This document shows positions 25,315 through 54,960 of a stretch of DNA of 64,000 nt, one piece after another. Made by a program: the position numbers and the translations under genes. The notes under the pieces are model-generated. The model saw only the letters and a list, made by a program, of their open reading frames with translations, was not told where the DNA came from and did no database searches. This DNA is from Gemmatimonadaceae bacterium (GTDB taxonomy: Bacteria; Gemmatimonadota; Gemmatimonadetes; Gemmatimonadales; Gemmatimonadaceae): positions 124,001-188,000 of the forward strand of contig DASXUN010000021.1 of the NCBI GenBank assembly GCA_036504815.1, written 5' to 3'. Within the stretch, counting starts at the first letter, position 1; each line of letters starts with the position of its first letter.

Positions 25315-26192
25315 CCGCCACCGGCCTCGTCTTCAACATCCAGCGCTTCTCGGTCCATGATGGTCCGGGCGTGCGCACCACGGTGTTCATGAAGGGATGC
25401 CCGCTTTCCTGTTCGTGGTGCCATAACCCGGAAAGTCAGGAAGTCTCGCCGAGCTTCGTGCGGCTCCGGCACCGCTGCATGCAATGCGGCCGATGCACCG
25501 ACGAGGAACTTGCCAACCCCGTCGTCGTCGGAAAGGAGATCTGCGACGTCGAGGCCTGCCCCACTGGAGCGCTGCAGCACGTCGGCGAACGCACGGATGC
25601 CGCGACACTCGTGGGCACCCTGCTGCGCGACCGCATCTTCTTCGATGAGTCCGGCGGCGGCGTGACCATCTCCGGCGGGGAGCCCCTCGTGCAGGCCCCG
25701 TTCGTCACGGACGTCTTGCGCCGCCTGCGCGCCGAGGGCGTGCACACCGCGCTCGATACGTGCGGCTTCGGTCCGTGGGAACATCTGCGCGATGCCGCGG
25801 CACACGCCGACCTCGTGCTGTACGACCTCAAGCTGATGGACGCGGCGCGTCACGAAGCCGCCACCGGCGTCTCGAATGTGCGCATTCTCGACAATCTCCG
25901 GACGCTCGCCGCAATGCGTGCGAACATCTGGATCCGCATACCCATCATTCCCGCCGTCAACGATGATGACGCGAACCTCGGCGACACGGCGGACTTCCTG
26001 CGGGCGATCCCGGGCATTCGCAACATCAGCCTGCTTCCCTACCACCCGACAGGCGAAGCGAAGTTCGCCCGCCTTGGCAAGCACTACGCCCTGCACGGCA
26101 CGGCCACGCCGGCGCCGGATCAGCTCGCCGCCATCGTCGCCCGCTTCGAGCAGCGCGGCCTGATGGCGACCATCGGAGGACAAGCCGCATGA
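25311..26192 (+). CDS. hypE: Glycyl radical enzyme activase (radical SAM), partner of HypD
   Basis: 293 residues. The radical-SAM cluster Cys30, Cys34 and Cys37 lies in GCPLSCSWCHNP (C-x3-C-x2-C). A ferredoxin-like insert has Cys56, 59, 62, 78 and 83. GGGVTISGGEPLVQ is the SAM-binding GGE motif. The protein would cleave S-adenosylmethionine and abstract hydrogen from the Gly of the downstream enzyme. Both ends overlap neighbours by 4 bp (ATGA), so all three genes are translationally coupled. The symbol follows the hydroxyproline system and is unrelated to hydrogenase maturation HypE. Assignment to HypD rests on adjacency. Confidence 0.88.
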   Translation: MTATGLVFNIQRFSVHDGPGVRTTVFMKGCPLSCSWCHNPESQEVSPSFVRLRHRCMQCGRCTDEELANPVVVGKEICDVEACPTGALQHVGERTDAATLVGTLLRDRIFFDESGGGVTISGGEPLVQAPFVTDVLRRLRAEGVHTALDTCGFGPWEHLRDAAAHADLVLYDLKLMDAARHEAATGVSNVRILDNLRTLAAMRANIWIRIPIIPAVNDDDANLGDTADFLRAIPGIRNISLLPYHPTGEAKFARLGKHYALHGTATPAPDQLAAIVARFEQRGLMATIGGQAA

Positions 26193-28576
26193 CCGCCCAC
26201 AGCCTCAGCACCGCCACGTCCGCGCGCACCGAGCGCCTGCGCCGCGAGAGCCTCGACGCCGTTCCGTCGCTCAGTGGCGAACGCGCCGCCCTCATCACCG
26301 CGTTCTACAAGGCCAACCTTGGTCGCTTCTCCGTGCCCGTGCTTCGGGCACGCAGTTTCTACGAGCTCTGCGACAAGAAGACCCTCTGGATGGGCGACGG
26401 GGAACTCATCGTCGGCGAACGTGGACCGGAGCCCAAGGCGGTCCCCACCTATCCGGAGCTGACCTGCCACAGCGCGGATGACCTGCGCATCCTCGATTCG
26501 CGCCCCAAGACCTCGTACAAGGTGGACGCGTCGGTCGTCGAGCTGTACGAGCGCGAGATCATCCCCTACTGGCACGGCCGTTCAGTGCGTGATGAGATGT
26601 TCGCGCAGTTGCCGCCGGAATGGCACGACGCCTACGCGGCCGGCTGCTTCACGGAGTTCATGGAGCAGCGCGCTCCCGGTCATACCGTTGCCGACGGGAA
26701 GCTCTATCGGAAGGGGATGCTCGACTTCAAGGTCGAGATCGCGCAGGCCATTGACGCACTCAATTTCGAACGCGACCCCGAGGCGCTCGACAGGCGCGAG
26801 CAGCTCCGCGCGATGTCCATCGCCTGCGATGCCGTCATGCGGTTTGCCGAGCGTCACGCCGATCTCGCCGCCGTCGAGGCGCTCACCACATCGGATGACG
26901 CGCGCCGCCTGGAGCTGCTCAAGATCGCCCAGGCCTGCCGGCACGTCCCGGCGCATGCCCCGCGCGATTTCCACGAGGCGCTCCAGTACTACTGGTTCTG
27001 CCACCTTGCCGTCATCACCGAGCTTAACGGCTGGGATGCCTTCTCCCCCGGGCATCTCGACCAGCATCTCGGCCCGTTCTACGAGGCGGGACTCGCCGAC
27101 GGCTTGCTCACGCCCGAATCGGCGCGCGAGCTGCTCGAGTGCTTCTTCATCAAGTTCAATAACCATACCGCGCCGCCCAAGGTGGGCGTGACGGCCGCCG
27201 AGAGCGGCACATACACCGACTTCGCGAACATCAATCTCGCCGGCCTCACGCGCGATGGAGCCGATGGGGCCAACGCGGTGACCCACCTCCTGCTCGACGT
27301 CATCGACGATTTCCACCTGCTGCAGCCCAGCAGCAACATGCAGGTCTCGCGCAAGACGCCTGATGCCGTGCTCAAGCACGCCCTGCGCGTCATCCGCAAC
27401 GGCTATGGCTTTCCCTCGCTCTTCAATGCCGACGCGGTGGTGGAAGAGCAGCTCCGGCAGGGCAAGACGCTCGAGGATGCGCGCGAGGGCGGCTGCTCGG
27501 GGTGCGTCGAAGTCGGCGCCTTCGGCAAGGAAGCGTACATCCTCACCGGCTACTTCAACCTGATGAAGATGCTGGAGCTCGCCCTGCACGACGGCTTCGA
27601 CGTGCGGACAGGCAAGTACGTCGGCGCGCGCACCGGCGATCCCGCATCGTTCGCGACCTGCGATGAACTGTTTGCCGCCTTCGAGGCACAGGTGCGGCAC
27701 GTGCTCGACATCAAGATCCGCGGCAACCAGCTCATCGAGCGGCTCTACGCCACGCGGATGCCGCACACTTTCCTGTCGGTCATCACCGACGATTGCATCG
27801 CGAGGGGCAAGGATTACAACGCGGGTGGCGCCCGCTACAACAACACCTTCATCCAGGCGGTCGGCATCGGCAGCATCACCGACTCGCTCGCGGCGCTCAA
27901 GGAGCTCGTCTACGACCGCGGTGACCTCCCGCTCGCGCGCTTCGTCGGCATTCTCGATGCCGACTTCGACGGCGAGGCCGTGCTGCGCCAGCGCCTGCTC
28001 AACAAGACCCACAAGTACGGCAACGACGACGAATACGCCGACGCCCTGATGACGCGTACCTTCCAGATGCTCTTCGGGGCCATCGACGGCCGCCCCAACA
28101 CCAAGGGCGGCGCCTATCGCCTGGAGATGCTTCCCACCACCTGCCATGTCTATTTCGGCGAGGTCTGCCTGGCGTCACCAGACGGCCGCCTGAAGGGACT
28201 GCCGGTCTCCGAGGGCATCTCTCCAGTGCAGGGTGCAGACAGGACGGGCCCGACCGCCGTGCTGAAGTCGGCGGCGAAGATGGATCACGTGAAGACCGGC
28301 GGCACGCTGCTCAACATGAAGTTCGCGCCGTCCCTCCTCGCGGGCGACAACGGCATCGACAACCTGCACAGCCTGGTCCGTTCGTACTTCAAGCTCGACG
28401 GGCATCACCTGCAGTTCAACGTCGTCACGGCCGACCTGCTGCGCGAAGCCAAGGCCAACCCCGCGGCGCATCGCGATCTCATCGTCCGCGTGGCGGGCTA
28501 CAGCGATTACTTCTGCGACCTTTCCGAAGCGCTGCAGGACGAGATCATCCGGCGTACCGAGCACACGGACTTCTAG
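26189..28576 (+). CDS. hypD: Trans-4-hydroxy-L-proline dehydratase (glycyl radical enzyme)
   Basis: 795 residues, a full-length pyruvate-formate-lyase-type glycyl radical enzyme. The thiyl Cys439 and general base Glu441 are in GCSGCVEVG, and the glycyl radical is Gly770 in RVAGYSDYF. Residues I recall as active-site in characterised HypD (His160, Asp278, Ser334, Asp339-Phe340, Cys434, Glu436, Tyr450, Thr645) are all present at a constant +5 offset: His165, Asp283, Ser339, Asp344-Phe345, Cys439, Glu441, Tyr455, Thr650. This supports HypD over glycerol, choline or propanediol eliminases. Reaction: trans-4-hydroxy-L-proline to pyrroline-5-carboxylate plus water, under anoxic conditions. No proC is visible nearby. 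A strong hairpin follows the stop. Confidence 0.88.
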   Translation: MTAHSLSTATSARTERLRRESLDAVPSLSGERAALITAFYKANLGRFSVPVLRARSFYELCDKKTLWMGDGELIVGERGPEPKAVPTYPELTCHSADDLRILDSRPKTSYKVDASVVELYEREIIPYWHGRSVRDEMFAQLPPEWHDAYAAGCFTEFMEQRAPGHTVADGKLYRKGMLDFKVEIAQAIDALNFERDPEALDRREQLRAMSIACDAVMRFAERHADLAAVEALTTSDDARRLELLKIAQACRHVPAHAPRDFHEALQYYWFCHLAVITELNGWDAFSPGHLDQHLGPFYEAGLADGLLTPESARELLECFFIKFNNHTAPPKVGVTAAESGTYTDFANINLAGLTRDGADGANAVTHLLLDVIDDFHLLQPSSNMQVSRKTPDAVLKHALRVIRNGYGFPSLFNADAVVEEQLRQGKTLEDAREGGCSGCVEVGAFGKEAYILTGYFNLMKMLELALHDGFDVRTGKYVGARTGDPASFATCDELFAAFEAQVRHVLDIKIRGNQLIERLYATRMPHTFLSVITDDCIARGKDYNAGGARYNNTFIQAVGIGSITDSLAALKELVYDRGDLPLARFVGILDADFDGEAVLRQRLLNKTHKYGNDDEYADALMTRTFQMLFGAIDGRPNTKGGAYRLEMLPTTCHVYFGEVCLASPDGRLKGLPVSEGISPVQGADRTGPTAVLKSAAKMDHVKTGGTLLNMKFAPSLLAGDNGIDNLHSLVRSYFKLDGHHLQFNVVTADLLREAKANPAAHRDLIVRVAGYSDYFCDLSEALQDEIIRRTEHTDF

Positions 28577-36643: not shown

Positions 36644-38785
36644 ATGCCTGCATCTTCCGGCCCGGGCACCGACCGGCTCGGGCCGATCTTTTCTCCACGG
36701 TCCGTGGCAGTCGTCGGCGCGACACGCGTGCCCGGTACGGTGCCGTTCGACATCTTCAGCAACATCCTGAAGGACGACTTCCAGGGGACCATCTACCCGG
36801 TCAGCCCGAGTGCCAGGTCCATTGCGGGCGTCAAGGCGTACAAGTACGTCCTCGACATTCCGGACCCCGTCGATCTCGCGGTCATCGTTTTCCCCAGCAG
36901 CGTCGTGAAGCTGGCCCTCGAACAGTGCGGCCAGAAGGGCGTGAAGGGCCTCATCATCATCAGCGCCGGCTTCCGCGAGGTGGGCGGCGCCGGGGTCCAG
37001 CGGGAAGAGGAGATCGTGCAGATCGCCCGCAGGTACGGGATGCCTTTCATCGGCCCGAATTGCCTCGGCGTCATCAACACCGATCCCGACGTCCACCTCA
37101 ATGCGTCGTTTGCGCGTCGCATGCCCGCCGAAGGGTCCATTGGCTTCCTCTCCCAGAGCGGCGCGCTGTGCACCGCGGTGCTCGATTACGCGCACGCGAA
37201 GAACATCGGCTTCTCCAAGTTCATTTCGTTTGGCAACAAGGCCGATATCAGCGACATCGACCTGATGCTGGCCCTCAAGGATGACCCGAAGACCAGGGTC
37301 ATCCTGATGTACCTCGAGGAGATGACGCACGGCGCGGCGTTCGTCGACGCGGCGCGGCGCATCATCCACGAGGCCGGCAAGCCCGTGCTGGTCCTGAAGT
37401 CCGGCCGCACGCGGCAAGGCGCCTCGGCCGCCGCGTCGCACACCGGCTCCCTTGCCGCGAGCGACGAGATCGTGGACGCCGCGCTGAAGCAGGCCGGGGT
37501 CATCCGCTGCCAGACGATCGAGGAGATGTTCAACAACGCGATCGCGCTCACGTACCAGCCGCTCCCCAGGGGACGCCGCGTCGCCATCATCACGAATGCC
37601 GGCGGTCCCGGCGTGCTGACCACGGATGCGGCGGTGCACGAGGGGCTCGAACTCGCGACGTTCTCCGACCAGACCCGCGACATCTTCAAGCGCTCGCTCC
37701 CGGTCACGGCCAATATCAAGAATCCGGTCGATGTCATCGGCGACGCGCGCGCCGATCGCTATCGCGTCGCGATGGGAAGCGCTCTCGAGGATGACAACGT
37801 CGACGGCGCGCTGGTGATACTCACCCCGCAGTCGATGACGGACATTGACACCATCGCCGAGGAGGTGTGCAACGTCGCGTCCGCGCACGACAAGCCGACG
37901 TACACGTCATTCATGGGCGAGACGGATGTCGCATCCGGCATCGGCATTCTCCAACGGCGCAACATTCCGCATTACATCCTCCCCGAATCGATGTGCCGCG
38001 CCTTTGCGCGCGCGCATGACTTCAGCGTCGAGCAGCATCGCACGATTACCCCCGCCCGGCAGTTCACCGACATCGACCGCGATGCCGCGCACGCCGTGCT
38101 GGATGCTTACGTCACGTCGGGCCGTTCCTATCTGACGCCTGCCGATGCCATGCGGGTGCTCGAGGCATATCGGCTGCCGGTCCTGCGCAGCGGGATCGCC
38201 ACGACCGCTGAGGACGCCGCACGCGTCGCGGCGCAGGTGGGGTTTCCGGTGGCGATGAAGGTGGAGTCGGCAGATGTCATTCATAAGTTCGATATCGGCG
38301 CGGTCGTGCTGGGCCTCGACAGTCCCGGCGCCGCGGCGTCGGCCCACGACGTCATCCTGGCCAAGGTCCGGGCGCATCAGCCGGACGCGCGCATCGACGG
38401 CGTCTTCATCCAGCAGATGGCGGGACCGGGCGAGGAAGTGATCCTCGGCGTCAAGCGCGACCCGGCCTTCGGCGCCGTCGTGATGTTCGGCCTGGGCGGC
38501 ATCTTCGTCGAGATCTTCCGCGACGTCGCGTTCCGGATCGCGCCGATTCCCGTCGAGCACATTCGCGCCATGATGCACGAAGTGAAGGCCTTCCCAATGC
38601 TCGCCGGCGCTCGCGGACGTCCGCATCGCGACATCGCCGCACTCGAGGAATGCCTGCAGCGCCTGTCGCAGCTCGCCGTGGACTGCCCGCAGATTCAGGA
38701 ACTCGACATCAACCCCCTCATCGTCCGCGATCAGGGCAGCGGCTGCGCCGTCGCCGACGCAAGGATTCTGGTCTCCCTCCCCTAA
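36644..38785 (+). CDS. NDP-forming acetate/acyl-CoA ligase (fused alpha-beta)
   Basis: 713 residues. CoA-binding domain (SPRSVAVVGATRVPGTVPFDIF), ligase-CoA domains with GPNCLGVIN and the phospho-His loop AASHTGSLAASDE, then the ATP-grasp subunit (TPADAMRVLEAYRLPVLRSG, VAMKVESADVIHKFDIGAVVLG, VEIFRDVAFRIAPI). The order is that of fused ACD enzymes, which convert acyl-CoA, ADP and phosphate to acid, CoA and ATP or the reverse. This would yield ATP from acyl-CoA during fermentation, in keeping with the anaerobic genes nearby. ATG 36644 has GGAGG six bases upstream. Acyl chain specificity is unknown. Confidence 0.88.
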   Translation: MPASSGPGTDRLGPIFSPRSVAVVGATRVPGTVPFDIFSNILKDDFQGTIYPVSPSARSIAGVKAYKYVLDIPDPVDLAVIVFPSSVVKLALEQCGQKGVKGLIIISAGFREVGGAGVQREEEIVQIARRYGMPFIGPNCLGVINTDPDVHLNASFARRMPAEGSIGFLSQSGALCTAVLDYAHAKNIGFSKFISFGNKADISDIDLMLALKDDPKTRVILMYLEEMTHGAAFVDAARRIIHEAGKPVLVLKSGRTRQGASAAASHTGSLAASDEIVDAALKQAGVIRCQTIEEMFNNAIALTYQPLPRGRRVAIITNAGGPGVLTTDAAVHEGLELATFSDQTRDIFKRSLPVTANIKNPVDVIGDARADRYRVAMGSALEDDNVDGALVILTPQSMTDIDTIAEEVCNVASAHDKPTYTSFMGETDVASGIGILQRRNIPHYILPESMCRAFARAHDFSVEQHRTITPARQFTDIDRDAAHAVLDAYVTSGRSYLTPADAMRVLEAYRLPVLRSGIATTAEDAARVAAQVGFPVAMKVESADVIHKFDIGAVVLGLDSPGAAASAHDVILAKVRAHQPDARIDGVFIQQMAGPGEEVILGVKRDPAFGAVVMFGLGGIFVEIFRDVAFRIAPIPVEHIRAMMHEVKAFPMLAGARGRPHRDIAALEECLQRLSQLAVDCPQIQELDINPLIVRDQGSGCAVADARILVSLP

Positions 38786-43153: not shown

Positions 43154-43191
43154 GCGGTGCTCGTTGATGGCTGACCACACAACAATACGAA

Positions 43192-43219
43192 GTCCCCCGG
43201 GTGTTGCCACCCGGGGGAC
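43192..43219 (-). terminator. Rho-independent-like terminator downstream of mtrB
   Basis: A 12-bp stem (43192-43203 with 43208-43219, GTCCCCCGGGTG type) with loop TTGC. On the minus strand it is followed by the T-rich TTCGTATTGTTGTG. It lies 76 bp beyond the mtrB stop and before the epimerase start. Confidence 0.8.
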
Positions 43220-43294
43220 CTCGTCGCTTCTCCCTCACCGCTCGCGAATCCCTGCTGTCAGGAGCATCAGGCGATTCGCCGCGGTCCAGCCGGC

Positions 43295-45619
43295 CTAGAA
43301 CTTGAACGTCAGCTTGGCGTACACGAGGTTCGCCGTGTACTTGCCGTCATCGGGCTTCATCTTGAAGATGAGCGTCGTCGGCATCAGGCTGCTGTTCCAG
43401 TTGTACGGATCCTTGTAGTCGTACTTCTCGAACATGTACCCGGCCGAGATCGCCCAGTCCTTCGTCACCACGTAGTTGTACGAAGCGTTCAGCGTCGTGA
43501 TTTCGGTGTCGTCCCAGTCGGTGAGGTCACCGGCGCCGCCCTGGCCGGCCGGAATCAGCGTCGTACGGCCCGGGTTGTAGAACGTGCCCGTTTCCAGCGC
43601 CGTGACGTCCATCAGGCCGTCCACTCTCTGGCTGGTCGCGGCGAACGAGAACGTCTGCCTCTCGGGCACGACCTGGAAGGTGAAGTTCGCACCGTAGGTA
43701 TTGGTCTCGTCGGTGCCGGCGTAGTTCAGCAGGTTGTTGATCTTCAGCGGGTTGACCGGCGCCGTCGCCGAGTTGGTCGTCGACCACTGGTTCGTGCGTG
43801 CGTCCTTCTCGAACGTGTAGAACCCGCCGATCGTCAGGCGCGCATTGGCGACGTAGTTGAACTCACCCGTGTAACTGTCGTACTTGGTATCGAGCAGGCC
43901 GCTCGGCGTGTTCGGCGTGGCAACGGCACCGGCGATCGGCACGCCCGCTGACACCGCGATGCGGTTCGGGCGGTCGACGAAATCGACGTTGCGACGGAAA
44001 TACGCGAAGCTCAGGTCGAACCCGTCCGCCGGCGTGAGTTCGATCTCGACGCCCGTCTTCGTGTTCTCGAAGGCGGCTTCGTCAAGCTGGAAGCCGTAGA
44101 CGGTCTCGCCTTCGGCGGTACGCTTGCTGAAATCGTACGTGCCGCGGAAGCCCAGCCAGTCATTGTAGTGATACAGGGCCGTCACGCCCATGCCACTCTC
44201 CGTCCCCTTCTCGGCTTCGCGATGCGTCCGTTCCAGCTGGCCGCCGCGCACTTGCCCTTCAATCGTGAACGCCTGGTAGTCGTACGTCGCCGACGCCGAA
44301 TAGCGCGAGCTCTTCGTGTCGTAGATGTTCGCCGTCGCATGGCCGAACGGATCGGCGGCCGTCGCGGTCACGGCCGTCCAGGCGCCGTTGCCCTGCGACG
44401 CATCACCCGTGATCACGTACTTGTCCGACTTGTCCTTCAGGTCGTTCACCCGATACTGCGCGCGCAGGGTCAGCCCTTCTGCCGGCCGGCTCGAAAACGC
44501 GAAGTTGTACATGGTCGTGTTGACCTTGCCGCCGTACGACGGCTGCTGCAGCGCCGCGCGGCTGGCCAGGTTCAGTCCGCTTGGGCTGCTGTTCATCGCC
44601 GCGGCCGTGTACGGGAAGAATGGCGCGTCCTGTGTAAGCATCGAGAGCGCGAGGCCGGCGCTGATGCGCGTCTGCTTCGCGAACTTGAACGTCACGCCGG
44701 CGCGGGCCGTGCTCGCCTCGTTGTCCGGCGCCATGACGACGCGGTCGCGGGACGGACCGCCCATCGCCGGAACCGTTGAACCCACCGCCGCCGTCTGAAC
44801 CTGGTCGACCCCCTGCACGAGGTTGTCGATCAGCATCGATTGCGCGCGGTTGTCGTAGATGCTCAGGTTGTAGCCGGCATACGCGCTGCCGTGCTTGAAC
44901 GTGTACGACGTCTTGATGCCGATGTCGTGCGTCATCTCATCCAGCGGCGTCGCTGCTTCCATCGCCGGTCCGAGTGCGCCGCGAATGTTCATGCTGGTCA
45001 GGCCACGATAGCCTTCCTTCAGCGTGTTCGTGTACGACAGCGTCACCGGCAGCGGCAGGTGGCTGCCCAGGTCGAGCTCGACGTTGCCCGTCTTGCGGAC
45101 GCCCGTGATGTCCACGAGGCCGGCGGCCTGGAACGTCGGGGTGAAGAGCCCCTGATACCACGGAATCGTGCGGGTCGACGTCGGCATCATCGCGTTGATC
45201 GCGTTCGCCAGCGCCGTGCGTAGCGTCGACGGAGCCGTCCACACCCCGGGCGCCGACTCGGCGAGCGTCGCGTGGGCGTCAAAGCCCATGTTGTGCGGCA
45301 CCTGGTTGTAGTCGAACTTGACGCCAAGGCCCATCGCCTTCAGCGAGCCGAAGTAGCGCTGGTTCTTCAGCGACACGTTCTGGCCCGTCAGGTTGAAGTC
45401 GACCTGCTTCGTGGTCGAGAAGAGGTTGAAGTTCGAGATCGAGGCGCCGTTCGGAATGTCCTTGTATTCCGTGAACTTGGACGACGTCACGTCTTCGACA
45501 CCGGTCGTCTTGATCGTGATCGAGCCGCCGCTGGTGGGCGCATTCTGCGCCGACGCGGCCGATGCCACCATGAGAAGCCCCATGGCGACGAACGCTGGAA
45601 TCTTCATTGCGCGTGTCAT
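43295..45619 (-). CDS. mtrB: MtrB/PioB-type decaheme-associated outer-membrane beta-barrel
   Basis: 774 residues with a signal peptide (PAFVAMGLLMVASAASAQ) and a long series of amphipathic beta-strands ending in the outer-membrane-protein C-terminal Phe (AKLTFKF). Strands such as VTLSYTNTLKEGYRGLTSMN, LRAQYRVNDLKDKSDKYV and GFRGTYDFSKRTAEGETVYGF fit the MtrB/PioB porin that sheathes a decaheme cytochrome across the outer membrane. The N-terminal CxxC found in Shewanella MtrB is absent. The ATG at 45619 follows the cytochrome stop by 7 bp; ATG 45607 is an alternative. It lies second in a two-gene operon with the decaheme protein and is followed by a terminator, with no outer-surface cytochrome after it. 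Confidence 0.88.
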   Translation of the reverse strand: MTRAMKIPAFVAMGLLMVASAASAQNAPTSGGSITIKTTGVEDVTSSKFTEYKDIPNGASISNFNLFSTTKQVDFNLTGQNVSLKNQRYFGSLKAMGLGVKFDYNQVPHNMGFDAHATLAESAPGVWTAPSTLRTALANAINAMMPTSTRTIPWYQGLFTPTFQAAGLVDITGVRKTGNVELDLGSHLPLPVTLSYTNTLKEGYRGLTSMNIRGALGPAMEAATPLDEMTHDIGIKTSYTFKHGSAYAGYNLSIYDNRAQSMLIDNLVQGVDQVQTAAVGSTVPAMGGPSRDRVVMAPDNEASTARAGVTFKFAKQTRISAGLALSMLTQDAPFFPYTAAAMNSSPSGLNLASRAALQQPSYGGKVNTTMYNFAFSSRPAEGLTLRAQYRVNDLKDKSDKYVITGDASQGNGAWTAVTATAADPFGHATANIYDTKSSRYSASATYDYQAFTIEGQVRGGQLERTHREAEKGTESGMGVTALYHYNDWLGFRGTYDFSKRTAEGETVYGFQLDEAAFENTKTGVEIELTPADGFDLSFAYFRRNVDFVDRPNRIAVSAGVPIAGAVATPNTPSGLLDTKYDSYTGEFNYVANARLTIGGFYTFEKDARTNQWSTTNSATAPVNPLKINNLLNYAGTDETNTYGANFTFQVVPERQTFSFAATSQRVDGLMDVTALETGTFYNPGRTTLIPAGQGGAGDLTDWDDTEITTLNASYNYVVTKDWAISAGYMFEKYDYKDPYNWNSSLMPTTLIFKMKPDDGKYTANLVYAKLTFKF

Positions 45620-45626
45620 GGGTGGG

Positions 45627-46556
45627 TTACCGGATGAAGTAGGCGCCCGAGGGCGAGTTGGAACCATGGATGTTCAGGTGGCAGTTCGCGCAGGAACGTC
45701 CGACAAAGCGCGAGTTCACCGTCGGATAGCCGGACGGCGCGCCAGTCGGGGCGATCGTCACGCCCTGTTCCGTGGCGTACTTGTCAAGCGAGCCAAAGTG
45801 GCCTGAACCCGTGAGGTGACAGCCCCAGCAGAGGTTGGGCATCTTCTGGTTGAGCATCCGCATGTGGTTCGAGCCGTGCGGATTGTGGCAGGTCGCGCAG
45901 TCTTCGCGGACCGGCGCATGCTCGAAGAGGAACGGACCGCGCTTTTCCGTGTGGCAGGAGTAGCACAGCTCCGTCGCCGTCTCCGCCTTCACCATCTTCG
46001 GGGTGTTCCCCTCGTGCGGGTTGTGGCAGCTTGAGCAGCCCATCTTTCCTTCGCGCACCGGGTGGTGCGACGTCCGGTTCATCTGGGCGCGCTGTGTCTT
46101 GTGGCACGCGTAGCAGGTCTCGGCGTCCGACTTCGTCTTCAGCTGCGCCGTCGCCGACTTGGGGCTGTGCACACTGTGGCACGAGGCGCAGGAGACGTTC
46201 CGGCGCGCATGCATGCCGCTCACGTAGCTCTCCTGGTTGCCCTTTTCATGGCAGCTCAGGCAGTTCGCGTTCAGGTCGGCGGCCTTCATCTTCTTCAGCG
46301 ACGGCACGGGGCCGTCCTTGCCTTCCGACTGTGCCTTGAAGTGCGCGTCGACGTCGTTGTGGCACTTCGCGCACGCCTGCTCGACCTTGGCGTGGGCCGA
46401 CTTGTTGTACGCCGGCGTGAGAGCCTTGTCGTGACAAGACTCGCAATCCGACGCCTTCCACGACGCCGCCTGTGCTCCCGCTTGCGCGAAGGCTCCTGAG
46501 CCTACGAGCAAGGCGAGTGCCCCTGCCAGCATCGTGGTGAACCTGAAATGACGCAT
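45627..46556 (-). CDS. mtrA: MtrA/DmsE-type periplasmic decaheme cytochrome c
   Basis: 309 residues. A Sec signal peptide ending near FAQAGAQA, then exactly ten CxxCH haem motifs: CESCH, CAKCH, CLSCH, CASCH, CYACH, CSSCH, CYSCH, CATCH, CWGCH, CANCH. Size and haem count match the MtrA/DmsE family, which carries electrons through the periplasm and into the MtrB barrel. ATG 46556 has GGAGGAG six bases upstream. First gene of the mtrA-mtrB operon, with a long AT-rich divergent region behind it. Direction of electron flow (metal or dimethyl-sulfoxide reduction versus iron oxidation) cannot be decided from sequence. Confidence 0.93.
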   Translation of the reverse strand: MRHFRFTTMLAGALALLVGSGAFAQAGAQAASWKASDCESCHDKALTPAYNKSAHAKVEQACAKCHNDVDAHFKAQSEGKDGPVPSLKKMKAADLNANCLSCHEKGNQESYVSGMHARRNVSCASCHSVHSPKSATAQLKTKSDAETCYACHKTQRAQMNRTSHHPVREGKMGCSSCHNPHEGNTPKMVKAETATELCYSCHTEKRGPFLFEHAPVREDCATCHNPHGSNHMRMLNQKMPNLCWGCHLTGSGHFGSLDKYATEQGVTIAPTGAPSGYPTVNSRFVGRSCANCHLNIHGSNSPSGAYFIR

Positions 46557-47098: not shown

Positions 47099-47150
47099 TT
47101 GATTTCGAGTTGTTGTACTCGTATAATTGTATATTCTGCACTTTCTGCAG
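47099..47150 (+). promoter_or_regulatory. Sigma-70 promoter and start-site palindrome of glnN
   Basis: TTGATT (47099-47104) and a perfect -10 TATAAT (47122-47127) are spaced by 17 bp, placing the start of transcription near 47134. A short palindrome, CTGCA-CTTTC-TGCAG (47136-47150), covers the start site and could be an operator. The leader to the ATG at 47186 is about 52 nt. Confidence 0.75.
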
Positions 47151-47185
47151 AGCACCCGCCCATTCTCTATCCCGGTAGAGCCCAC

Positions 47186-49393
47186 ATGAACCCTCGCGTT
47201 GCCGCTATCAGGGCCATTGCCTCGCGCGTGGTCACACCGCCCGACATCCCTTCCACCAAGGAAGGTGGAGAGCCGATCTCGCACTACTTCGGATCGCTCA
47301 CCTTCGGCGCGCGCCAGATGCGCGACAAGCTCCCCAAGGAAGTCTTCGCCAAGCTCAACTCGGCCATCCGACTCGGCAAGAAACTCGACGTCGACATCGC
47401 CCCCACCGTCGCCCAGGTCATCAAGGAATGGGCGATGTCGAACGGCGTCACCCACTTCTGCCACTGGTTCCAGCCGCAGACGGGACTCACCGCCGAGAAG
47501 CACGACGCCTTCTTCTCGTTCGATGAGAACAAGCTCCCCATGGAGTCGTTCACCGGCGAGCAGCTCATCCAGAGCGAGCCTGATGCGTCGTCGTTCCCGT
47601 CCGGCGGCCTCCGCGCCACGTGGGAAGCGCGCGGCTACACCGCGTGGAACCCGGCGTCGCCCGTCTTCATCATGGATTCGGCCGGCACCAAGACGCTGTG
47701 CATCCCCTCGGTCTTCATCGGCTACAACGGCGAGGCGCTCGACGAAGTCACCCCGCTCCTCCGCTCGTCCGACGTGCTCTCGCACAAGGCCATGGAGGTG
47801 CTGGAGCTACTCGGCGATAAAGGCGCGATGCGCGTCTACACGACGATGGGCGCCGAGCAGGAGTACTTCCTCATTGACCGCGGCCACTTCTCGCTGCGCC
47901 CCGATCTCGTGATGGGCGGCCGCACGCTCATCGGCGCCCCGCCGCCGCGCGGACAGCAGCTCGAAGACCACTACTTCGGCGGCATCCCCGAACGCGTGCA
48001 GGCCTGCATCGCCGAAGTGGAGTACGAGCTCTATCGCCTGGGCGTGCCCATCGTCACGCGCCATAACGAAGTCGCGCCCTGCCAGTTCGAGATGGCCCCC
48101 GTCTTCGAGGAGACGGACATCGCCACCGACCACAACCAGCTCGTGATGGCGATCCTCCGCAAGGTGGCCATGCGGCACGGACTCGTCGCGCTACTGCACG
48201 AGAAGCCGTTCGCCGGCATCAACGGCTCCGGCAAGCACTGCAACTGGTCGATGTCCGTCGCCTCCGACAACGAGCTCGATGGCGTCAACCTGCTCAAGCC
48301 CGGCAAGACACCGCACCAGAACCTGCGCTTCCTGCTGTTCCTCGCCGCGGTCCTCAAGGCCGTCTTCAAGCATCAGGGCCTCCTGCGCGCCGGCATCGCC
48401 ACCTCCGGCAACGAGCACCGACTCGGCGCCAACGAAGCGCCCCCGGCCATCATCTCGGTGTTCCTCGGCGCGATGCTCACCAATATGATCGAGGACATCG
48501 TCGCCGGCCGTACAGGCACGTCAGCCGATGCCGCCATGATCAAGCTCGGCGTCGCCAAGCTCCCCGAGATTGCGCAGGACAACACCGACCGCAACCGCAC
48601 GTCGCCGCTCGCGTTCACCGGCGCCAAGTTCGAGTTCCGCGCCGTCGGCTCGTCGCAGTCCATCGCCTTCCCGGTGATGGTGCTCAATACGGTGGTCGCC
48701 GAGGCCATTGGCGAGCTCACCGCCGACCTGAAGGACGAACTCAAGAAGACCAAGAGCATTGACGACGCGGTGCTCAAGGTCGTGCGCATCGCCTTCAAGG
48801 AGACGGCGTCGATCCGCTTCGAGGGGAACAACTACTCCGAGGAATGGGTGAAGGAGGCCAAGACGCGCGGCTTGCTCAACCTGCGTCGCACGCCCGAAGC
48901 GCTCGACTATCTCAAGGTCCCGACCACGCGGAAGCTCTTCACGGCACTCGGCATTCTGTCCGAGGCCGAACTCGAGAGCCGGTATCACGTGCGCATCGAG
49001 CGCTATACGAAGGACATGCTCATCGAGATGCACACCATGCGCGAGATGGCGGACACGATGGTCATCCCCGCGGCGTTCAAGTACCTCGGCGTCGTCGCCG
49101 ATGCCGCGCAGAAGTCCAAGGCCGCCGGCATCAAGACCAACCCCGCGGCCGCCGCGGCAACGACGCTCGCCAGGCAGATCACCGATCTCCAGAAGCGCAC
49201 CGCCGCGCTCCGCGCGGCCGCCGAGAAGGGCGACTCGATGCACGAGACGCCCGGCAAGTGCGCGCAGTTCCTCACGAGCACCGGAGCGGATTGCATGGCC
49301 AAGGTGCGAGAGGTTTGCGATAGCTTGGAACTCACTATTGGTGACGAGTTCTGGCCCCTACCGAGATATCGTGAGATGGTGTTTCCGGTTTAG
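47186..49393 (+). CDS. glnN: Glutamine synthetase type III (GSIII)
   Basis: 735 residues, the length of GSIII, much longer than GSI. Motifs: the N-terminal FGSLTFGARQMRDKLPKEVF and THFCHWFQPQTGLTAEKHDAF block, GAEQEYFLID (metal Glu), TRHNEVAPCQFEMAPVFEE, DHNQLVMAILRKVAMRHGL, INGSGKHCNWSMS (substrate loop) and LGANEAPPAIISVFLG. It makes glutamine from glutamate, ammonia and ATP in the cytoplasm. ATG 47186 is preceded only by weak GAG. A strong sigma-70 promoter lies upstream, and an 11-bp repeat array begins at the base after the stop codon, merging with a terminator hairpin. A second glutamine synthetase (glnA) lies 5 kb downstream. Confidence 0.95.
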   Translation: MNPRVAAIRAIASRVVTPPDIPSTKEGGEPISHYFGSLTFGARQMRDKLPKEVFAKLNSAIRLGKKLDVDIAPTVAQVIKEWAMSNGVTHFCHWFQPQTGLTAEKHDAFFSFDENKLPMESFTGEQLIQSEPDASSFPSGGLRATWEARGYTAWNPASPVFIMDSAGTKTLCIPSVFIGYNGEALDEVTPLLRSSDVLSHKAMEVLELLGDKGAMRVYTTMGAEQEYFLIDRGHFSLRPDLVMGGRTLIGAPPPRGQQLEDHYFGGIPERVQACIAEVEYELYRLGVPIVTRHNEVAPCQFEMAPVFEETDIATDHNQLVMAILRKVAMRHGLVALLHEKPFAGINGSGKHCNWSMSVASDNELDGVNLLKPGKTPHQNLRFLLFLAAVLKAVFKHQGLLRAGIATSGNEHRLGANEAPPAIISVFLGAMLTNMIEDIVAGRTGTSADAAMIKLGVAKLPEIAQDNTDRNRTSPLAFTGAKFEFRAVGSSQSIAFPVMVLNTVVAEAIGELTADLKDELKKTKSIDDAVLKVVRIAFKETASIRFEGNNYSEEWVKEAKTRGLLNLRRTPEALDYLKVPTTRKLFTALGILSEAELESRYHVRIERYTKDMLIEMHTMREMADTMVIPAAFKYLGVVADAAQKSKAAGIKTNPAAAAATTLARQITDLQKRTAALRAAAEKGDSMHETPGKCAQFLTSTGADCMAKVREVCDSLELTIGDEFWPLPRYREMVFPV

Positions 49394-53555: not shown

Positions 53556-53599
53556 CTGTTGTCTCTCTGTTGTTTCTCTGTTTTCTCTCTGTTGTTTTT
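53556..53599. repeat. 11-bp tandem repeat array, locus 4 (4 units), directly after the glnA stop
   Basis: CTGTTGTCTCT, CTGTTGTTTCT, CTGTTTTCTCT and CTGTTGTTTTT on the plus strand. On the glnA strand this reads TGA followed at once by AAAACAACAG and further CAACAGAG units. Same orientation relative to the upstream gene as at glnN. Confidence 0.95.
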
Positions 53600-54960
53600 C
53601 AGTACTTCGCCAAGTACTGCGCCAGCTCCCACTCCGACACCTGTGTCACGTACTCTCTCCACTCCTGTCTCTTGGCATCTAGGAAGTGTCGAGTGACATG
53701 CTCGCCGAGCGCCGCGCACATCTCCTTGTCCTTCTCGAGTTCGTCGCACGCCTCGTTGAGGTCGTGCGGCAGGTCGTCGATGCGCAGGCGCCGCTTCTCG
53801 CGGAAGCTCATCTCCCAGATGTTCTCGTCCACCGGCTCGCGGCTCGAGGCCTCGGTCTCGAGCCCATCCAGTCCGGCCGCGAGCATGACCGCGAGCGCCA
53901 GGTACGGGTTGGCGCTGGGATCGGGCGACCGCAACTCCACGCGCGTTCCCGTGCCGCGGCGCGCCGGCACGCGAATCAGCGGCGACCGATTGCGCATCGA
54001 CCACGCGACGTTCACCGGCGCCTCGAATCCGGGCACGAGCCGCTTGTACGAGTTCACCAGCGGATTGGTGATCGCGCTCATCCCCCGGGCGTGCCGCAAC
54101 AGGCCGCCAATGTAGTGGTGTGCCACCGATGAGAGCTCAAACTCGCCCTTCGGATCGAAGAAGGCGTTCTGCCCGTCCTTGAACAGCGACTGGTGCGTGT
54201 GCATGCCGCTGCCGTTCTGTCCATAGATCGGCTTGGGCATGAACGAGGCGTGCATGCCGAACTGTTGCGCCACGTTGCGCACCACGAACCGGAAGGTGGC
54301 AAGCGCATCGGCCGTGGTGAGCGCGTCGGCGTACCGGAAATCGATCTCGTGCTGTCCGTGCGCCACTTCGTGATGCGCCGCCTCGATCTCGAATCCCATC
54401 TGCTCCAGCGCATCCACGATCGCGCGCCGCGCATCTTCGCCGAGGTCCACCGGGCCGAGATCGAAGTACGACCCCACATCATGCGTCGTCGTGCTTGGCG
54501 CGCCGTCGGGCCCGAGCCGGAACAGGAAGAACTCCGCCTCCATCCCGGCGAACATCGTGTACCCCAGTCGTGCGGCGCGCGCGACCTGTCGCTTCAGGAC
54601 GCCGCGAGGATCGCCGGCAAAGGGCTCGCCTTCCGGCGTCGTGATGTCGCAGATGAGCCGCGCCACCCGCGCCTGCGGGTCGCTCCACGGGAAGATCCGG
54701 AAGGTCTCCAGGTCCGGCCGCAGCAGCATGTCGCTCTCCTCCACCCGCACGAAGCCTTCGATGGAGGAGCCGTCGAACAGGATGTCACCCTCGAGCGCCT
54801 TCTTCAGTTGCGACGTCGGAACTTCGACGTTCTTGTTGACGCCGAGAATGTCGGTGAACTGCAGCCGGACGAAGCGCACTTGATGCTGCGCCACAATCGC
54901 CATCAGGTCTTTGGCGGTCACGCCACGCAGGTCGCTCAGCAGGGCTCGAGAGGTGGTCAC
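53599..54960 (-). CDS. glnA: Glutamine synthetase type I (GSI-alpha-like)
   Basis: 453 residues. FTDILGVNKNVEVP, FDGSSIEGFVRVEESDMLLRPD, GMEAEFFLFR (metal site), HHEVAHGQHEIDFRY, MPKPIYGQNGSGMHTHQSLFKDG and ANPYLALAVMLAAGLDG are classic GSI motifs. Its length and the lack of the GSI-beta adenylylation segment point to the alpha type, regulated by feedback rather than by adenylylation (family knowledge). The GTG at 54960 is the only plausible start near the conserved N-terminus; no strong Shine-Dalgarno is seen. It is the second glutamine synthetase in the window and, like glnN, is followed immediately by an 11-bp array. Confidence 0.95.
   Translation of the reverse strand: MTTSRALLSDLRGVTAKDLMAIVAQHQVRFVRLQFTDILGVNKNVEVPTSQLKKALEGDILFDGSSIEGFVRVEESDMLLRPDLETFRIFPWSDPQARVARLICDITTPEGEPFAGDPRGVLKRQVARAARLGYTMFAGMEAEFFLFRLGPDGAPSTTTHDVGSYFDLGPVDLGEDARRAIVDALEQMGFEIEAAHHEVAHGQHEIDFRYADALTTADALATFRFVVRNVAQQFGMHASFMPKPIYGQNGSGMHTHQSLFKDGQNAFFDPKGEFELSSVAHHYIGGLLRHARGMSAITNPLVNSYKRLVPGFEAPVNVAWSMRNRSPLIRVPARRGTGTRVELRSPDPSANPYLALAVMLAAGLDGLETEASSREPVDENIWEMSFREKRRLRIDDLPHDLNEACDELEKDKEMCAALGEHVTRHFLDAKRQEWREYVTQVSEWELAQYLAKY

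Follow-up and report, generated by a model that had tools for sequence, protein, structure and literature searches.

In Shewanella, the MtrCAB complex (6r2q) combines a ten-haem cytochrome, MtrA, and an outer-membrane barrel, MtrB, with the outer-surface cytochrome MtrC; MtrAB pairs without an extracellular cytochrome are already known as MtoAB and PioAB (PMC5566968). The nearest published description of relatives of the locus presented here concerns the group-2 porin-cytochrome complexes of karst metagenome-assembled genomes (MAGs): the passages of PMC13264449 (2026) cited here report a small decahaem cytochrome beside a porin of 25-36 strands, with an ImcH/NapC-like protein in 6/8 and petBC in some, and suggest electron export. 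According to PMC6295460, Fe(III) reducers are the only organisms in which ImcH is known, and relatives of CbcL occur in systems of both directions. Here we describe an mtrA-mtrB pair in a 64,000-nucleotide stretch of a Gemmatimonadaceae genome (contig DASXUN010000021.1, positions 124,001 to 188,000; hereafter the window). We propose, with a probability of roughly 0.55, that it is an outward conduit across the outer membrane, in which electrons pass from menaquinol through ImcH/CbcL to MtrA inside MtrB, and on to an external acceptor without MtrC.

The initial annotation had recognised a ten-haem cytochrome and an MtrB/PioB barrel in a two-gene operon ended by a terminator. Open reading frames, ten CXXCH motifs, the family models TIGR03508 and PF11854, the barrel fold and the hairpin all bear this out, and mtrA and mtrB are confirmed as a two-gene unit closed by a terminator:

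45627..46556, minus strand: mtrA, ten-haem periplasmic c-type cytochrome of 309 aa with an N-terminal signal-like segment
43295..45619, minus strand: mtrB, outer-membrane beta-barrel of 774 aa, without cysteine
43187..43224, minus strand: Rho-independent-type terminator hairpin, 17-pair stem and T-rich tail, 3' of mtrB

The 309 residues of MtrA contain exactly ten CXXCH motifs and no cysteine outside them. The protein scores 226.8 bits with TIGR03508, above the cut-off of 192.2, and matches Shewanella baltica MtrA, chain 6r2q_A, with a phmmer E of 6e-48. In the PDB sequence table this chain is named 'Cystathionine beta-synthase', apparently a labelling error. The mtrB reading frame can be extended to 790 aa, from 45667; since homologues begin at MTRA(M/T)K, the likely start is 45619, 7 bp from the mtrA stop. 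The terminator stem, 43224-43187 on the minus strand, has a folding energy of -44 kcal/mol (z -5.2).

TIGR03508 carries the name 'DmsE family' decahaem, and a DmsEF-like conduit serving one extracellular reductase, for dimethyl sulfoxide, iodate or the like, has to be weighed. A related locus, L034, also has a set of molybdenum (Mo), iron-sulfur (Fe-S), NrfD and cytochrome c genes between two mtrAB pairs. The model name, however, spans MtrA and DmsE equally, and neither the mtrA-mtrB unit nor the window genes scanned around it include a DmsAB-type Mo/Fe-S gene; we regard such a role as very unlikely.

The barrel reaches 145.7 bits with PF11854, where 23 would suffice, but fails the stricter subfamily model TIGR03509 (104.5 bits against 240.05); judged by sequence, it is a distant member of the family. 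Because the TIGR03509 score lies well under its cut-off, we tested the fold; a sequence search of the PDB with the barrel gave no meaningful chain match. An AlphaFold model built from 23 aligned barrels (pLDDT 78, pTM 0.72) has MtrB, chain 6r2q_B, as its best Foldseek match (E 2.5e-31), the next being an unrelated barrel at E 1.4e-11. VIA-align superposes the model on 6r2q_B with a Z of 23.3, at 2.9 Å over 626/649 residues (TM-scores 0.70/0.82), and its runners-up, unrelated barrels, do not exceed Z 16.6. The barrel is predicted to have the MtrB fold over its whole length; a placement outside MtrB/PioB, which the initial annotation had named as fatal to its reading, did not occur.

The likeness to Shewanella MtrCAB, a ten-haem cytochrome with a superposable barrel, goes together with clear differences. 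Identity between the window barrel and Shewanella MtrB is about 14-16%. Shewanella MtrB is reported to have an N-terminal CXXC, whereas the window barrel, devoid of cysteine, has no such motif. Its genome lacks an MtrC over the cut-off, and its MtrA falls in a separate clade.

The initial annotation had seen no MtrC/OmcA-like partner in the window, and the statement extends to the whole genome, a Gemmatimonadota MAG (assembly G000; 3.5 Mb, 31 contigs, 99.4% complete). No OmcA/MtrC (TIGR03507) match there exceeds the cut-off: the best reaches 18.4 bits against 209.3, and this lone weak match overlaps a five-haem reading frame of an alternative complex III operon. MtrC can be called absent only in the sense that no match lies above the family cut-off. 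Searches of the genome for a surface cytochrome with TIGR03507, PF09699, PF13435, PF14522 and a haem-spacing pattern gave no candidate beyond the examined loci. The pattern, which would miss irregularly spaced cytochromes, matched 35 times against 2 in a reversed-pattern control, and all 35 matches fall in the examined cytochrome loci, the sets on contigs C3 and C12 included; scanning for CXXCH alone proved too noisy (280 matches, with 180 in the control; among the matches listed, contigs up to C10). By the genome-wide pattern and family searches, mtrA is the only multihaem gene of the window contig, C21. Among 395 Gemmatimonadota genomes sampled across the phylum, 0 have OmcA/MtrC over the cut-off, a count from the best two candidates per genome, in which a miss is possible; one Gemmatimonas with MtrCAB is listed in the survey of Baker et al. 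(PMC8805035).

Electrons might still leave through a surface partner unlike MtrC/OmcA, an unrecognised cytochrome or surface reductase encoded elsewhere. TIGR03507 may miss distant forms, mtrC of Desulfobacterota can stand in another operon than mtrAB (PMC12133095), and contig C8 of the same genome encodes an ExtM-like 11-haem protein beside a Mo-enzyme. Yet the single N-terminal hydrophobic segment of the C8 protein is equally compatible with an inner-membrane anchor and with export, and the spacing-pattern clusters are confined to the examined loci, none of which has an MtrC/OmcA model match over the cut-off. We consider a partner of this sort rather unlikely.

Relatives came from a scan of genome contigs, the best 80 of 528 being retained as named loci. 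Thirteen of these are of the window type (59-74% identity), all from Gemmatimonadota or Acidobacteriota, Vicinamibacteria included, and the mtrA-mtrB pair is found in 13/13, some cut by contig ends. No third operon gene is conserved across the 13, common neighbours being housekeeping genes or limited to two loci; apart from L034, none has a gene for at least four haems besides mtrA within 9 kb, with short flanks on some contigs. A careful MtrA tree of 87 rows, omitting L057, L080 and L081 (long branches) and most genomes outside the named loci, groups the window type in a 14-row clade with support of 100/100; L037 and L038 form the next branch (99/85). Approximately unbiased (AU) tests reject forcing this clade together with either the MtoA-type rows or the proteobacterial Mtr rows (p-AU 0.0007 in both), the groups having been defined after inspection of the tree and the MtoA-type being Sideroxydans and similar, with no functionally proven MtoA or PioA included. 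Membership of the window MtrA in either clade is rejected by these tests. The comparison with MtrAB and PioAB that the initial annotation had suggested, as far as these rows represent them, places the window MtrA apart from both sets, in a Gemmatimonadota/Acidobacteriota clade.

This placement bears on an inward conduit, in which Fe(II) or another external donor would reduce MtrA and then the quinone pool, perhaps via a CbcL-type protein or alternative complex III. An MtrAB without MtrC has the layout of MtoAB/PioAB (PMC5566968), CbcL/MtoC relatives are found in Fe(II) oxidisers (PMC6295460), and L036 has Rieske, cytochrome b and cytochrome c genes adjoining a window-type pair. But the window MtrA lies outside the MtoA-type clade; ImcH, known from Fe(III) reducers, is present and tracks the window MtrA type; and a photosynthetic reaction centre (PF00124) occurs in 0/10 genomes of the genus, the present one included (RuBisCO, Cyc2 and PioC were not searched for). 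With no reaction centre in these ten genomes, we reject phototrophic iron oxidation of the PioAB type, and inward flow in general appears unlikely.

The initial annotation had further proposed a genome search for quinol oxidases of CymA-like or cbc type, and both ImcH and CbcL-type oxidoreductases were found, on contig C10:

C10:10622-12178: ImcH homologue, three N-terminal transmembrane helices, CX3CH after the third and six CXXCH, in agreement with the definition in PMC6295460
C10:7602-9767: CbcL-type cytochrome 1, 13 CXXCH and a C-terminal b-type membrane domain (PF01292, 54.4 bits)
C10:4778-7570: CbcL-type cytochrome 2, 19 CXXCH and a C-terminal b-type membrane domain (PF01292, 30.0 bits against a cut-off of 30.1)

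The imcH gene is divergent from genes for 4-haem, 13-haem and 19-haem proteins, the latter two showing the CbcL layout of a multihaem N-terminus followed by a HydC/FdnI-like b-type membrane domain. In their helices, haem-motif arrays and domains these proteins resemble Geobacter ImcH and CbcL; here, by contrast, the recognised outer-membrane conduits of the genome are MtrAB. The position of ImcH on another contig than the window pair also differs from the karst group-2 complexes, and the passages of PMC13264449 cited here contain no MtrA tree or phylum-level count.

In the 2018 data of Zhong and Shi (PMC6295460), as far as the text cited here goes, no mtrAB is adjacent to imcH. Unlike in those data, an ImcH homologue adjoins mtrAB in 10/80 of our named loci, with one partial case (G016/L132) added by the phylum sample. 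All ten neighbours have the CX3CH motif and three transmembrane helices (L043 is cut by a contig end). The order is mtrA-mtrB-ImcH-CbcL on one strand in L037, ImcH-mtrA-mtrB in L048, L050 and L082, and 11-haem/cytochrome b-ImcH-mtrA-mtrB in L057 and L084. Ten of the 11 ImcH-linked rows belong to a 42-row clade that includes the window, and one (L057) lies among the other 71; the Fisher p of 0.0002 ignores relatedness, and many loci beyond the named 80 have about 1.5 kb of flank. The ImcH-mtrA-mtrB set of L048 (8265-12781) sits on a contig labelled Acidimicrobiia (Actinomycetota), with its MtrA nested among those of Acidobacteriota; an outer-membrane barrel under an Actinomycetota label suggests mis-binning.

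Three mtrAB pairs are present in the window genome, on contigs C21 (the window), C18 and C6. The C18 pair is followed by an OmpR-type regulator and a histidine kinase; that of C6, its barrel cut by the contig end, adjoins 2-oxoacid:ferredoxin oxidoreductase genes. In the phylum sample, MtrB exceeds its cut-off in 32/395 genomes and ImcH (E <= 1e-20) is found in 23/395, with both in 13. Split by MtrA type, ImcH occurs in 11/11 genomes with the window or C6 type against 2/15 with the other Gemmatimonadota type (p 2e-5); for G376 the type was assigned from its epimerase neighbour and from a barrel fragment with 73% identity to the window barrel. The comparison omits six MtrB genomes, G123 (C18-type only) and G286, G291, G300, G310 and G312 (MtrA untyped), which have ImcH in 0/6.

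We now propose a path for the electrons. Menaquinol would give up its electrons at the inner membrane to ImcH, the CbcL-type cytochromes or both; electrons would cross the periplasm to MtrA by an intermediate step or by direct contact, run through its ten haems within the MtrB barrel and exit at the outer surface to a metal oxide, a humic or shuttle compound, or a partner cell, with no terminal cytochrome of the MtrC type. The outermost haem of MtrA may itself contact the acceptor, MtrA then acting as terminal reductase. Reduction of metal or organic oxides and oxidation of iron had both been entertained in the initial annotation: the identity of the conduit stands, and for the direction, which it left open, the MtrA phylogeny together with the linkage to ImcH speaks for outward flow and against a role like that of PioAB/MtoAB. 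Both the direction and the acceptor are inferred.

Several observations weigh against this proposal. Conduits of the MtrAB type can run both ways. A diverged surface partner could escape family searches. An ImcH neighbour is found in 0/14 window-type rows on the DNA examined, and the window pair is tied to ImcH via genome and clade, with no operon link; support for the wider clade with the ImcH-linked rows is not strong (88/88), and L057 has ImcH yet falls outside the 42-row clade of the quick tree. L036 and L034 have bc-type and Mo/Fe-S/NrfD genes adjoining mtrAB instead. Finally, 9/11 ImcH-positive genomes of the window or C6 type come from one genus, without which the co-occurrence of MtrB and ImcH falls to 4/22 against 10/363 (p 0.0055).

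A bolder version would make these genes a third MtrAB lineage of Gemmatimonadota and Vicinamibacteria, neither proteobacterial Mtr nor MtoA, with a complete MtrC-less outward chain from menaquinol through ImcH/CbcL to MtrA in MtrB, the outermost MtrA haem as direct terminal reductase and as many as three specialised copies in one genome. As a whole we hold it only tentatively, and would sooner doubt it than assert it.

Among the relatives, G222 has a C6-type mtrA with a barrel split over two frames (L150:5506-8896) adjoining an intact pair, also C6-type by MtrA; G174 has a similar tandem, there intact. Decay of this kind, and the redundancy that three pairs could imply, might make the window pair a relic or a non-respiratory complex. 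Against this, the pair is intact with all ten haem sites kept, and is maintained in all 13 named window-type loci (bar the contig-end truncations) and in two phyla; we judge the idea highly improbable.

Other loci show varied surroundings. In L036 (431-6636), the Rieske, cytochrome b and cytochrome c genes lie directly upstream of the window-type mtrAB, comparable to the petBC clusters reported in PMC13264449. In L034 (3-13294), from an Acidobacteria MAG, two mtrAB pairs that differ in type enclose genes for a Mo-enzyme, an Fe-S protein, NrfD and a four-CXXCH cytochrome c, possibly one respiratory island. An S46 peptidase (L032:4044-6233, checked) or its homologue (L033:12961-15150) lies 3' of mtrAB in two Vicinamibacteria. 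In G238 (L153:222-15608), several reading frames with 9 to 17 CXXCH and a b-type cytochrome stand between two mtrAB pairs; these frames need curation.

Elsewhere in the window genome, C18 also encodes alternative complex III and a ccmABCEF operon, so that cytochrome c maturation genes, whose absence the initial annotation would have counted against itself, are present. Further haem loci are NrfHA on C29, a 13-haem/Fe-S/NrfD set on C20, and the C8 11-haem gene beside its Mo-enzyme. The reading frames flanking the pair in the window encode an epimerase, DUF4954, glutamine synthetase III and others, and the window shares part of its gene order, including the ligase, DUF4954 and further genes around mtrAB, with the Gemmatimonas sp. 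isolate PR.004 MAG and Gemmatimonadetes nzgw228. Two glutamine synthetases beside the conduit, type III and classical (47099-49393 and 53599-54960), lie about 4 kb apart, an arrangement shared with nzgw228. The two enzymes from which an anaerobic lifestyle had been read are real, a glycyl radical enzyme at 26189-28576 and an NDP-forming acyl-CoA ligase at 36644-38785; strict anaerobiosis is not settled by them, since the genome has alternative complex III genes and both enzymes lie outside the operon, the ligase about 4.5 kb and the radical enzyme 15 kb away.

Both MtrAB without MtrC and decahaem-porin clusters linked to ImcH have been published before, and the window conduit is a lineage-specific variant of this kind. 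In the literature searched we found no paper dedicated to MtrAB of Gemmatimonadota, nor any account of a distinct MtrC-less clade, of three copies per genome or of a type-specific association with ImcH. Gemmatimonadota are usually read as heterotrophic. If our proposal is true, outward extracellular electron transfer would extend to this common soil and freshwater phylum, and the conduit would be a natural test case for the need for MtrC in reduction outside the cell. In addition, the linkage to ImcH hints at direction from sequence, which an MtrAB pair by itself does not do.

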